Assembly: GCA_002686955.1 (NCBI GenBank)
Contig: NYZA01000163.1
Location: 1 to 13,402, forward strand
DNA length: 13,402 bases
Reading direction: 5' to 3'
Source: Gemmatimonadota bacterium
GTDB lineage: Bacteria > GCA-2686955
How positions within the stretch are numbered: position 1 is the stretch's first letter; every line of letters starts with the position of its first letter. The notes below the pieces were generated by a model that saw only the letters and a list, made by a program, of their open reading frames with translations, made no database searches and was not told where the DNA came from. A program made the position numbers and the translations under genes. Shown here piece by piece: positions 8,774 to 13,333 of the stretch.

Positions 8774-9104
8774 AGAGGGAGAGGAAAGAGGGGGATTGGG
8801 GCGACATGCTCTCGCCGGTCTTCGTCCCCCCCGCCGACGCTCACCGCGACCGGCTGCGCATCTCCCGGGGGCTGGACCGCTCTTGTTCTCGAAACGCCGC
8901 GGCGCGACGCGACCCGCCTCACGCAGCGTTCACGCGTGCCAACGCCTTCGGCCGCCGCGCTCACCTGCCGTCCGCGGCCATGGAGACAGGCGCCGCGTGA
9001 CGCGCCTCGATGAATTCCCGCCAGGGGCTACGTCCTGGCGAAGTCGAACCCCAAGGGGGAGACGAAACCGGCGGCGCGACGGCGTACGCGGGCACCGTGA
9101 GGAT
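8774..9104. other. Gene-free stretch after the sensor kinase
   Basis: About 330 bases with only short overlapping frames and no recognisable family. A frame starting at ATG 8806 (64 codons) begins with a vaguely receiver-like stretch but lacks the acidic pair and the phosphoacceptor region, so I do not call it. A 36-codon frame from ATG 9010 ends inside the left arm of the following inverted repeat. An 8-bp inverted match (GAATTCCC near 9013, GGGAATTC near 9120) links it weakly to that element. Confidence 0.4.
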
Positions 9105-9297
9105 TGACGTTTCGATATAGGGAATTCTCTGGAGGACCGCGCACTGGCGGGCGGAGAGCCGTCGTTCCTGGCCAGGCAAGCCCAGCGGCTCCACTCGGGG
9201 CGAACTTCCCGCCCTGCGTGCCGGCGAGGCAGTACTGGTCAGCGCGCCCCTCTCCGCGTCGTGGCACTCGCGAGCTCGAGGGCATATCGAAACGTCA
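9105..9297. repeat. 193-bp inverted-repeat element downstream of the HNH gene
   Basis: A perfect 14-bp inverted repeat bounds the element: TGACGTTTCGATAT at 9105-9118 and its complement at 9284-9297. Inside lie an 8-bp perfect pair, GCGGAGAG (9151-9158) with 9250-9257, and an 8-bp pair with one wobble, CTGGCCAG (9168-9175) with 9235-9242. Near the centre is a small hairpin, GGGCG-aacttcc-CGCCC. The right boundary is 12 bases past the HNH stop codon. It may be a structured RNA in the HNH 3' region, or a non-autonomous foldback element. Its sequence is unlike that of the 7070-7245 element. Confidence 0.55.
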
Positions 9298-9308: not shown

Positions 9309-10670
9309 TCAACTTGTTGCTTGTCTCCGGCGATTGTGCGCCCCGCAGAGCAACCGCAGATTCGATTCGGTGTTGTCGCCACCGCGCGCGAAAAGTTGAA
9401 CGTGGTCGATCTGTACGAACCAGCGGCTTCCGCAGCGTCGTCCTTGGCCATCGAGGTAGGTGCAGCAACTCTCGTCTCGCGCCCAGACCCGGCGGCGGAC
9501 CTCGGCGGGTATATGACGGGAACGTTTCGTGCTGTTGTCATCGCTCGGACGAGGTGGCGCAGTGGGGGCGCGTGCACTGAAGGGCGCGTCGGCAGGCGAG
9601 GCGACGCGCGTAGCGGGCGCGTCGAGACGGCGCTTTTTGCCGGCCGTGGCGGGTGCCATGGCGAGTGCTTCGGCAGATGCGTCGGCGGGCGCGTCAATGG
9701 GCGCGTCGAATCGGGGTCTCTCGGCCGCGGTGTTCGGGACGCTCCTCTTCTTCCGGCGCGCCTGGGGTCTCGGGCGCTCCGCTTGAGTGGTTGATGCCTC
9801 CTCACCGGGCGCGGCGGCGCGCCGTTCCTGGATGCGCTCGGCGCGACGGCGGCGGCGTGCATCGGTGAGCAACGCATCCAACCCAAGCTCGAGGATGCGG
9901 GCCAGATCCCCGTCGGGAAGCGAGTGACTGAGCTGTGCACGGGCCTCTTCGAGCTTCTCCGCGAACCCTTTGCCGACGGTGAGGGAGAGACTGTAGAGCG
10001 CCTCGGCACCGGCCGCCGATTGGTCTTCCGTGGGGGTCGATTTCGGGCTGGATGTGGCCGGCGAGAGAGCTGGGTTCCCGGCTGGTTTGGGGCCACCGGT
10101 GGACGGTGCCGGCGAGCCCTTACCGGCCTGTTCGCCATCCCTCCGAGTGCCGGTGTTGGCTCGCCCCGGGGCGAGTCGCGCCGCCACGCCTCGATCAGGT
10201 CCGCCATCCGCCGGCCCGCGCCCCCGCGCAACCGGAGCCCGCAGGCGCCGCAATGTCCCCTTCCGGCGAGGGGGCGCCGCCGCCGGGAAACGGTCGGCAA
10301 CCAGCGCTTCGATCTGTCGCTTGGTCAGCCCGGACGCGGCCGCCAAGAGCTCCCGATGATTCTCCCGCGTCATATACGGCCCAAGAATCGCCAATCCCGC
10401 GAGATGGATGCGACCCGCGCCGAACGCCCGCAACACGGCGGGGAATCGACGGCCGAGCCTCGCCGCCTGAATCGGTTTGTAGGCAACATCCTCCGAGAAA
10501 CCGAGGCGGGTCGTACAGAACGCGAACATCGAGAGGCAGGCTTCCTCGAGATAGAGCCTGCGCGCATCGACCTCGCCCAGCTCCACCAACAGCTCCCGCG
10601 TCACACCGCGCACCTGAGCCACCAGATTCCGCAGCGCATTCAGTAGCTCCGTGTTCGATCGAGTCTTCAT
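9309..10670 (-). CDS. HNH endonuclease with DUF222-like N-terminal helical domain
   Basis: A 453-residue protein. Residues 1-140 are the helical domain seen in large families of HNH proteins (L-R-N-L-V-A-Q, then EVDARRLYLEEACLSMFAFC, LGFSEDVAY, LAGLAILGPYMTRENHREL). A linker rich in Pro, Gly, Ala and Arg follows. A second conserved block near 225-270 (LEEARAQLSHSLPDGDL, LELGLDALL) and a second Ala/Pro-rich linker with repeated D-A-P motifs lead to the C-terminal nuclease at 385-453. There D422-H423, N437 and H445 give the D-H...N...H signature, with C402/C403, C413 and C442 as likely structural zinc ligands. The start is the ATG at 10670, which opens the conserved domain; the frame reaches 10754. 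Such proteins occur in many copies in some genomes and are poorly understood; nuclease activity on DNA is inferred. It stands alone, with inverted-repeat structures on both sides. Confidence 0.88.
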   Translation of the reverse strand: MKTRSNTELLNALRNLVAQVRGVTRELLVELGEVDARRLYLEEACLSMFAFCTTRLGFSEDVAYKPIQAARLGRRFPAVLRAFGAGRIHLAGLAILGPYMTRENHRELLAAASGLTKRQIEALVADRFPAAAPPRRKGTLRRLRAPVARGRGPADGGPDRGVAARLAPGRANTGTRRDGEQAGKGSPAPSTGGPKPAGNPALSPATSSPKSTPTEDQSAAGAEALYSLSLTVGKGFAEKLEEARAQLSHSLPDGDLARILELGLDALLTDARRRRRAERIQERRAAAPGEEASTTQAERPRPQARRKKRSVPNTAAERPRFDAPIDAPADASAEALAMAPATAGKKRRLDAPATRVASPADAPFSARAPTAPPRPSDDNSTKRSRHIPAEVRRRVWARDESCCTYLDGQGRRCGSRWFVQIDHVQLFARGGDNTESNLRLLCGAHNRRRQATS

Positions 10671-10972
10671 GGCGTTCAATCCTGTTCCTTTCTTGGGTTG
10701 GACCCGATTCCACCCTCGAATTTCGCGGCCTACTGTAGTCGCCCCCGACGCCACTTCTCCATCCGCGGGACATAAATCGTTACTGCCGCCACGATCTCCA
10801 GGCAGAGAGGGTCTGTGCGCGCTATCGAGGCCGCGGAAACTATGACGCTCAGTTCGCCCTTTTCGGCCGCGAAATCGCTGTCAAGTGTTTTTGTTGCCGA
10901 TCACCAGGAACCGCGCCTACCGAGACGCCGCCGCCTCTCCACGATTCCGCCCCGAAGAGAGGACACCAAACT
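10671..10972. other. Gene-free stretch between the HNH gene and the FKBP remnant, with an 11-bp inverted repeat
   Basis: About 300 bases with no coding frame I accept. It should contain the HNH promoter on the minus strand. An 11-bp perfect inverted repeat, ATTTCGCGGCC (10720-10730) with 10865-10875, encloses a 7-bp one, TCCGCGG (10762-10768) with 10831-10837. This is weaker than the two structures above, and an 11-bp match could arise by chance in GC-rich sequence of this length. AGAGAGGA at 10956-10962 looks like an old ribosome site ahead of the FKBP remnant. Confidence 0.4.
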
Positions 10973-11281
10973 CTGAAAAACCTCCTCACCAAGCCCATCG
11001 CCGCCCTCGCCGCCCTCGCCGCACTCCTCCTCACCCCGACCCCGGGCAAAGCCGGGTTCGACAGCTCGGTTCAGCGCGGCGAACCTTCAACATTTCCCCT
11101 GAACCGGGTCATCAAGGGCTGGACCGAGGGACGAACTCCCGGGCCGCGGTGGTTGCGCCTTCCCCCATCGGTCTTGGAGGACGTCGTGACGTGGGATCAA
11201 CTCGGGCCAAGAAGGTATCGGTCGATCGGGCACCGGTTCCGGTCACTTTCGGAACGGTGTCGTCGGATCGTCCTCGAATAG
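10973..11281 (+). pseudogene. Remnant: signal peptide joined to the middle of an FKBP prolyl isomerase, CTG start
   Basis: The frame opens with CTG at 10973 and no ATG, GTG or TTG precedes it in frame nearby, though a ribosome-site-like AGAGAGGA lies about ten bases upstream. It may be a lost ATG (one base change) or a rare CTG start. Residues 1-27 form a clear signal peptide (K-N-L-L-T-K, then an Ala/Leu core, ending G-K-A). Residues 28-53 match the middle of FKBP-type peptidyl-prolyl isomerases: F-D-S-S, R-G-E-P, T-F-P-L-N, V-I-K-G-W-T-E-G, including the active-site Trp (W50). The first strands of the FKBP fold are missing before it. The invariant part after it (L-Q-L-M and L-A-Y-G) is missing too: from 11132 the frame turns into unrelated sequence until TAG at 11279. 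I infer two deletions and no function. Confidence 0.7.
11231..11259. other. Stable hairpin in the FKBP remnant
   Basis: CACCGGTTCCG (11231-11241) pairs with CGGAACGGTG (11250-11259) with one bulged G and an 8-base loop, giving ten base pairs. No U-tract follows on either strand, so it is not a classic intrinsic terminator, though it could be a leftover of one. Confidence 0.4.
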
Positions 11282-11404
11282 CGTGGAATTGGGGGGACCC
11301 CGCGCGACGGCCGCCCTCCCCACGGCCGGGCGGGCTAGTGTTCCCAATCAGAAACCGAGCTACGCTCAAGGCACCCTCAAAGGTCAACCGCGAAGCGGGG
11401 CTCG
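11282..11404. other. Non-coding spacer between two gene remnants
   Basis: Short, very GC-rich spacer with no frame or site I recognise. There is only a weak purine-rich stretch (GCGGGG) before the ATG at 11405. Confidence 0.3.
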
Positions 11405-11954
11405 ATGCCCTTCCTGGCGGCCCACAACCTGGTCAAGATCTACCCTGGCGGGGTGCGAGCGCTTGACGACGTGTCTCTCGACCTCTACCCCGAGTACACT
11501 GGAACCGGGCTGGTCTCCATCCTGGGAGACGAGCCAGTCGCTTCGCCCGTAGAGGCGCTCCGCCGAGTGCGCGCCTCCTTCCTCGGCCGCTGGCAGCTCC
11601 AGTGGCTCGCGCCTCTCGGGTTCGAGAACGCTTACGAGCTGGCGGTACCCGAGACCCTGGCCCACGCGCGGGGCTTGCGATCCATCTCCGACCTGAGCGC
11701 GATCTCCGGCCAGCTCCACGCCGGGTTCGGCCACGAGTTCCTCGAGCGTCCCGATGGTCTGCCGGGTCTCGAGGCGATGTACGGCCTGCGCTTCGCCTCG
11801 GTGCGGGGCCTGCAGCAGGCGCTCAAATATCAGGCCGTGGCCAGCGGTGAGTTGAGCTGTCTCGATGTCTACACGACCGACGGACGCCTGATCGTTCACG
11901 ATCTACGGGTGCTGGAAGACGACCTAGGCTTCTTCCCGCCCCCTATGCCGCCGC
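11405..11954 (+). pseudogene. Chimeric remnant: ABC ATPase N-terminus joined to an osmoprotectant-binding protein, then frameshifted
   Basis: Residues 1-29 are the start of an ABC transporter ATPase (L-V-K-I-Y-P-G-G-V-R-A-L-D-D-V-S-L-D-L-Y-P), stopping before the Walker A motif. From residue 30 (11492) the same frame continues as the second half of a glycine betaine/choline-type (OpuAC) binding protein: EYTGTGL, WLAPLGFENAYELAV, S-I-S-D-L, E-F-L-E-R-P-D-G-L-P-G-L, M-Y-G-L, V-Y-T-T-D-G-R-L and L-E-D-D-L-G-F-F-P-P. After 11941 the family's next residues (Y-A-A) lie in another frame, because the C run before TAT at 11944 is out of length by one or two. The rest of the ATPase, any permease and the first half of the binding protein are gone. 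The open frame runs on to 12700 only as a shadow over the next gene. Neither an ATPase nor a complete binding protein could be made. Confidence 0.75.
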
Positions 11955-12050
11955 CTCTCGGGAGCGATCCCCGCGGCCCTGCTCGCGCTGGCAGTGGATG
12001 GTCTGCTGGGTTGGGTGGAGCGCCGCCTCCGCCCGCACGGTCTTCCGTGA
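11955..12050 (+). pseudogene. Remnant: C-terminal tail of an osmoprotectant ABC permease
   Basis: In a third frame, 31 residues ending at TGA 12048-12050 match the end of OpuCB/OpuCD-type permeases: L-S-G-A-I-P-A-A-L-L-A-L-A-V-D, then L-L-G-W-V-E-R-R-L-R-P-H-G-L. This is a last membrane helix followed by the usual E-R-x-L-x-P-x-G tail. It directly abuts the frameshifted end of the binding-protein fragment, so a second deletion has removed the end of the binding protein and nearly all of the permease. The order ATPase, binding protein, permease fits decay of one transporter operon, although the ATPase piece is too short to place in a subfamily. Confidence 0.65.
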
Positions 12051-12199
12051 CGCGCGGACATGCGCCCCGGCGCTCCCCCTGCGCGATGTGGCCGGCGGCC
12101 GATGCGGCGGCAAGCTCCAGCCGGAGGGCGGAGGACCGATCACCGTTGAGGGGGAGGGAAGCGTGGGACCCTTTCCTGTACGGATCTACATTCCCGCGA

Positions 12200-13333
12200 T
12201 CATTCGCCCACCGTGCGAAGCTCACTCTCTGGAATCACGTCGATCCTTGCGTCGAGTGTGTAGCGTCGCTCGCCGGGATAAATGATGAGCAACCGGTCCA
12301 GCTCCAGATCTTCAGTGGCGATTCGCATCGACCGCGTGACCTTCGGCGCATCCTGTCTCTTGATCTCAATTCCAAGTCGACGAGTCGGGATGTAGAGATC
12401 CAGCTCGGAACCGCTGTGGACCGCGTAGAAGTAAGCGTCCTCCCGGGGGAAAATCCGGAGAGCTTGTTCCAGCACGTACCCCTCCCACGAGGCGCCCAGC
12501 TTTGGGTGAACCAGAAGGTCCCCGTAGGCGCCGATGCCCTGAAGGGTGTGAAAGAGGCCGCTGTCCCGGAAGTAGATCTTCGGGGTCTTCACCAGACGCT
12601 TGCCGACATTGACATACCACGGCAACAGGCGCCGGATCATGAGCGCCTGCTCCAGCGCTTCCAGGTATCGTCTGGCGGTGTTCGGAGCGATGCCCATTGA
12701 GCTCGCGATTTCGTTTCCATTCCAGGTCTGCGCGTGGTAGTGCGAGAGCATGGTCCAGAAGCGCCCCATTGCTTGGGGTGAGATCGCGAAACCGAGCTGC
12801 GCCAGATCACGCTCGAGGAAGGTGCGAACGAAGTTCCGGCGCCAGGCCAGGCTGTCCTCGTCGGAGTCGGCGAGAAAGGAGCGGGGGAACCCGCCTCGGA
12901 TCCACAGGCTCCGTGCTCCGTCGCGGCTGATCTCCCCACAGTCGAATCCGCCCATCTCAACGATCTCGACGCGTCCGGCAAGGGTCTCGCTCGCCTGCCG
13001 CGAGTGCTCCGGCGACGCGCTTCCCAGAATTAGATAGCTCGCCGAGCAGTCCTGCTGATCCACCAGCACGCGCAGCACAGGGAAAAGATCGGGACAGCGT
13101 TGTGCTTCATCGATGACCACCAAACCACTCAGCCCCGACAGCGCCGTCATCGGGTTCTGCATCAGCAGCGCGGCGGTAGGGTCTTCGAGGTCGAAGTAGG
13201 TCGAGGGTCTCCCCTCGAGCAGCGTCTTGGCCAGCGTGGTCTTGCCGCACTGGCGGGGTCCGATCAAGGCGACAATGGGGCTTCTGCGCAGCGCCCTTGT
13301 GACGCGATCCGATAGAGCTTCTCGCGCGACCAT
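12200..13333 (-). CDS. AAA ATPase with C-terminal DUF4143 domain
   Basis: A complete 377-residue protein of the AAA_14/DUF4143 family. Walker A is GPRQCGKTT (25-33, K31), Walker B LVVIDEAQ (71-78, D75-E76), and a sensor-like strand LILGSAS sits at 101-107. A winged-helix-like segment (N-G-N-E-I-A-S-S-M-G-I, N-T-A-R-R-Y-L) follows at 204-239. The DUF4143 part has Y-F-R-D-S-G-L-F near 254, S-W-E-G-Y-V-L-E near 283, and a PD-(D/E)XK-like set E310/D312...E323-x-K325 (GSELDLYI, then GIEIKR). Known members bind ATP; a nuclease role for the last domain is structural inference, and the cellular role of the family is unsettled. The ATG at 13333 has no ribosome site but a promoter-like sequence just upstream. 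It converges on the transporter remnants and looks intact, unlike them. Confidence 0.9.
   Translation of the reverse strand: MVAREALSDRVTRALRRSPIVALIGPRQCGKTTLAKTLLEGRPSTYFDLEDPTAALLMQNPMTALSGLSGLVVIDEAQRCPDLFPVLRVLVDQQDCSASYLILGSASPEHSRQASETLAGRVEIVEMGGFDCGEISRDGARSLWIRGGFPRSFLADSDEDSLAWRRNFVRTFLERDLAQLGFAISPQAMGRFWTMLSHYHAQTWNGNEIASSMGIAPNTARRYLEALEQALMIRRLLPWYVNVGKRLVKTPKIYFRDSGLFHTLQGIGAYGDLLVHPKLGASWEGYVLEQALRIFPREDAYFYAVHSGSELDLYIPTRRLGIEIKRQDAPKVTRSMRIATEDLELDRLLIIYPGERRYTLDARIDVIPESELRTVGE

Follow-up and report, generated by a model that had tools for sequence, protein, structure and literature searches.

The window analysed here, a stretch of 13,402 nucleotides, belongs to a Gemmatimonadota genome known from a fragmented draft assembly (270 contigs, 84.5% complete). 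On its forward strand lie three pieces of an ABC importer in direct succession, joined at two junctions and traversed by a single mechanical reading frame:

11405..12700, forward strand: mechanical ORF of 431 aa (ORF list)
11405..11491, forward strand: head, ~26-29 codons from the start of an ABC ATPase gene of OpuA/ProV type (translation; alignment to the ATPase starts of relatives)
11478..11485, forward strand: junction 1, TCGACCTC, a probable word common to both parents, with the frame kept (deduced from the genes of relatives)
11480..11941, forward strand: middle, ~150-154 codons of an OpuAC-type substrate-binding domain, DLYPEYTG...LEDDLGFFPP (PF04069; identity to Mor1; solved binding proteins)
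11942..11959, forward strand: junction 2 zone, CCTATGCCGCCGCCTCTC, where LSGAIP is read one frame off from FFPP, which is in the frame of 11405 (DNA comparison with relatives)
11955..12050, forward strand: tail, the last ~31 codons and stop of a permease half, LSGAIPAALLALAVDGLLGWVERRLRPHGLP (local alignment)

Read from 11405, the stretch 11405-11954 (+) translates without a stop as MPFLAAHNLVKIYPGGVRALDDVSLDLYP directly joined to EYTGTGLVSILG and onward, so the in-frame join of an ATPase start and a binding protein described in the original prediction is present in the sequence. The ORF, which had been taken to end at 11954, actually extends to 12700: there is no stop near the end of the binding-protein fragment, and the residues beyond ~179 are out-of-frame nonsense of ~250 aa, partly antisense to an AAA_14/DUF4143 gene at 12200-13333 (-) (ORF list; Pfam of the antisense gene). 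While the union of ATPase head and binding protein stands, the earlier reading missed the third piece, the permease C-terminus, which lies out of frame. A promoter-like site was sought at the locus and none was found.

The head consists of 29 aa from the ATG at 11405; the start codon is kept, and the Walker A, signature and Walker B motifs, none of which occurs in the remnant, are lost. Only the ~29 residues preceding Walker A are left, and PF00005 has no match at the locus. The ATPase nature claimed for the start of the chimera holds: aligned to the ATPase starts of five loci among the closest relatives (L013, L015, L016, L017 and L025), the head reaches BLOSUM62 scores of 58-66, vs ~31 for shuffled heads, with up to 15 identities in 28 at the expected upstream position; against the ATPase starts of other relatives the scores are lower, usually still above the shuffles. 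Sugar-type ABC ATPases often read SLDLYPGE ahead of Walker A. The head might thus have come from a different ABC operon, for example one with a sugar-type ATPase, and have been joined by rearrangement and not by deletion within one operon: it reads VRALDDVSLDLYP, a common form in that type, and LYP is absent at that point from the ATPases of the relatives listed, which read roughly V-x-L-x-V-x-x-G-E. However, the head sits exactly at the ATPase-start position of the relatives, on the same strand and in the same order, its best matches are the heads of L017, L016, L015, L013 and L025, and no other similar ATPase start was found in the assembly. The LYP itself, which had been ascribed to the ATPase as well, is found in none of the relatives' ATPases examined, and the binding proteins read IDLYPEYTG or close variants there; most likely, therefore, judging from these alignments, LYP at junction 1 is the contribution of the binding protein alone. 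An origin of the head in another operon is accordingly improbable, and a source in the same operon is the reading we infer.

The middle piece matches Pfam PF04069 (OpuAC) over ORF residues 18-179 (E 2.7e-29; profile 44-200 of 257), with 103 bits against a curated cut-off of 21.2; the NCBIfam OsmF equivalog NF049931 gives 47.8 bits, below its curated cut-off of 400. The fragment lacks the signal peptide, ~50 residues at the start of the mature protein and the C-terminal end. A complete two-lobe OpuAC domain with an export signal is not present, as no signal peptide lies ahead in frame, and solved binding proteins of ~275 residues align to the fragment only over mature residues ~52-213, so that the binding domain is truncated on either side. 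Among solved chains, the nearest to it are choline/nicotine sensor precursor proteins and EgtUC. A search of the genome collection yielded 80 loci with relatives, among which the best identity is 71%, in Acidobacteria bacterium Mor1. The fragment is 50-71% identical to its relatives, as Mor1 is to the others at 47-74%; its differences from them are concentrated at third codon positions in the DNA comparison, and the 450 bp of this piece contain neither a stop nor a frameshift. The middle is thus as conserved as its functional relatives and would have been under selection until recently. Because an old pseudogene would show decay and this piece is undecayed, the collapse would be recent, or else the join would be an artefact; the conserved middle fits either.

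The tail follows the binding-protein fragment directly, one base out of frame, and corresponds to the C-terminus of the permease half in relatives, e.g., LSGAIPAALLALAADAVLGALGKWLRPRGVGP in L019. Its local alignment scores are 78-108 against close relatives whose locus includes the permease end, and 33-47 for shuffled queries. PF00528 (BPD_transp_1) has no match at the locus, where the membrane-spanning permease domain is absent and the last ~31 codons alone are left.

An intact operon, for which a search among relatives had been proposed, was found. In the closest loci an ATPase gene with Walker A precedes a single open frame that comprises signal peptide, binding domain and permease, and such intact relatives occur in Acidobacteria, Eisenbacteria, Nitrospira and others. 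The order head, binding domain, tail was recovered in 13 of the 18 loci in which the binding-protein motif could be placed and both head and tail outscored the shuffled controls; in the non-conforming loci among those listed, the best match of the head lies elsewhere or the permease end lies ahead of the binding domain. The binding domain is full in the relatives examined among the 80 loci, and the chimeric architecture was seen in none of the 80, the matches starting at query residue 11 at the earliest and mostly at 18-25, that is, in the binding domain. In the closest loci 887-1046 bp separate the point ahead of Walker A from YPEYTG, and 756-795 bp lie between FFPPY and the LSGAIP motif; of either stretch essentially nothing is left in the remnant. 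The remnant measures 646 bp of an expected ~2.3 kb, so about 1.7 kb is gone, of which junction 1 accounts for about 0.9 kb and junction 2 for about 0.77 kb. What survives, in parental order, is ~29 codons from the start of gene 1, ~150 codons from the middle of gene 2 and ~31 codons from its end.

Since the three pieces stand in parental order, both outer ends of the operon are kept, intact relatives exist, and the frame shifts at junction 2 and runs on as a nonsense tail to 12700, we consider the locus likely to be a pseudogene made by deletions, in which a two-gene ABC importer operon of betaine type survives in condensed form. Its pieces are collinear with an intact relative, the interior is missing and the frame is disrupted, as expected of a pseudogene made by internal deletion. 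The ancestral operon would have consisted of an ATPase gene followed by a fused binding-protein/permease gene, serving a quaternary-ammonium or similar solute. Two internal deletions, of the sizes given above, would have left little of the ATPase or the permease and taken the beginning of the binding domain; slippage or end-joining at short shared words is the probable mechanism. The first leaves the frame unbroken, a one-in-three outcome by chance, and this creates the apparent chimera; the second breaks the frame. Junction 2 alters the frame, and therefore no complete fusion protein can result. Having no ATPase motifs, export signal, permease or proper end, the remnant is most likely non-functional. 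The frame is continuous over 179 codons and the residues of the middle are conserved, which could be read as a functional small fusion protein, an ATPase N-terminal strand with a binding-protein core in a new role. Yet the Walker motifs, the signal peptide and a complete binding fold (profile 44-200 of 257) are absent, ~250 aa of nonsense follow with no nearby stop, and no fetched relative has the same architecture, which makes such a protein exceedingly unlikely. We regard as equally far-fetched the idea that the collapsed operon is at an early stage of giving rise to a new gene, with the 179-codon fusion translated and retained as a small cytoplasmic protein that binds a solute.

The proposed loss of the DNA in between, fusing the ATPase start to the binding-protein gene, is supported as a deletion within the operon, but the shared DLYP-coding stretch invoked for recombination between short direct repeats is too long and the second deletion went unnoticed. 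Most relatives' binding-protein genes read ATCGAYCTCTAYCC at junction 1, and the ATPase genes diverge from about there. Given this reading and the lack of LYP in the relatives' ATPases, the word common to the parents probably measured about 5-8 bp around TCGACCTC and did not extend over all of DLYP; it can be approached through relatives because the ATPase DNA of the parent is lost. Within the operons of relatives, the two sides share words no longer than 5-7 bp near junction 1 and 4-8 bp near junction 2; over the full lengths of the ATPase and fusion genes the maximum is 10-14 bp. Words of 4-8 bp are near chance length, and microhomology is therefore compatible with the junctions, not demonstrated by them. 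An exact 13-nt direct repeat, GCCGCCGCCTCTC, occurs at 10927-10939 and at 11947-11959, its second copy lying on junction 2; it may possibly be due to chance in GC-rich DNA.

Common metagenome assemblers start at k = 21, the usual minimum. The alternative origin suggested for the join, an assembler collapse of similar k-mers, is not favoured, because the junction words are shorter than this. More broadly, the operon may be intact in the organism, with a contig that skips two stretches via chimeric or low-coverage joins, an assembly or library artefact with which the fragmented, 84.5% complete draft and the full conservation of the surviving middle piece, free of any sign of decay, would agree. 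Such an artefact would, however, need two independent skips within one operon, at words of 4-8 bp in relatives (no more than 14 bp even across the full genes); elsewhere on the contig the large genes are intact (ORF list; Pfam), and neither the missing parts of the binding domain nor another copy of the head occurs elsewhere in the assembly. We therefore hold it to be unlikely, though less so than a foreign origin of the head. A second intact copy, sought in the 84.5% complete assembly by protein, by DNA, by the OpuAC family and by the head sequence, was not found, nor was any other OpuAC domain. In the one same-family genome searched, neither a homologue of the binding domain nor DNA matching the junction region turned up. 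The viral contigs searched do not contain the exact junction DNA, and no plasmid was found with similar DNA. Literature searches returned no report of such a fusion, and a search on short-repeat deletions returned nothing specific.

The surroundings of the locus are rich in repeats. An HNH-type gene at 9309-10754 (-), intact in this copy, belongs to a multi-copy family with 13 matched stretches in the draft genome, many of them fragmentary or stop-bearing, and one in the sister genome; its repeat, shared with three other contigs, takes in ~130 bp upstream of the gene and ends at 10891. An interspersed repeat at 9102-9208, of up to ~110 bp, is 78-89% identical on two other contigs and one sister-genome contig. 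Another, short, at 12061-12126 is 84-86% identical to C176:31412-31473 and C71:6971-7021; the repeated fragment, of 51-62 bp, starts at 12061, eleven bases past the permease stop. The decayed repeats count toward a decaying neighbourhood, as would suit a deletion pseudogene. The stretch 10943-11290, which codes a signal-peptide-like LKNLLTKPIAALAALAALLLTPTPGKA with CTG at the start position and then ~75 residues without an assigned family, is possibly another gene remnant. It was considered as a part of the operon and was not tied to it; an ATG start is lacking, and repetition elsewhere in the genome stops at 10891.

What the locus shows is the usual decay of genes or, with lower probability, a mistake in assembly; it is no new protein. 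It illustrates that a pair of internal deletions can produce a chimera with an unbroken frame, which automatic annotation would label a new fusion protein. It also points to the apparent loss of the sole uptake system of OpuAC type found in the assembly of this genome, whose phylum is sparsely sampled. Among known systems, the nearest are the operons of an ATPase gene and a binding-protein/permease fusion gene in Mor1 (L012), Eisenbacteria (L014), Thermoanaerobaculia (L015 and L019) and Nitrospira bin75 (L023), which share the order and orientation of the pieces and whose binding domains are 62-71% identical to the fragment; these operons are intact, whereas the remnant is frame-shifted and has lost about 1.7 of about 2.3 kb. 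The OpuAC binding proteins of subcluster F-III (ProX, OpuBC, OpuCC and EgtUC) are homologous to the fragment over mature residues ~52-213; the fragment differs in lacking both ends of the domain. The relatives with solved structures bind choline, betaine or ergothioneine (PMC9732360; solved chains). EgtU unites membrane and binding domain in one chain, as does the fusion gene of the relatives, in which the binding domain precedes the permease (PMC9732360 for EgtU).
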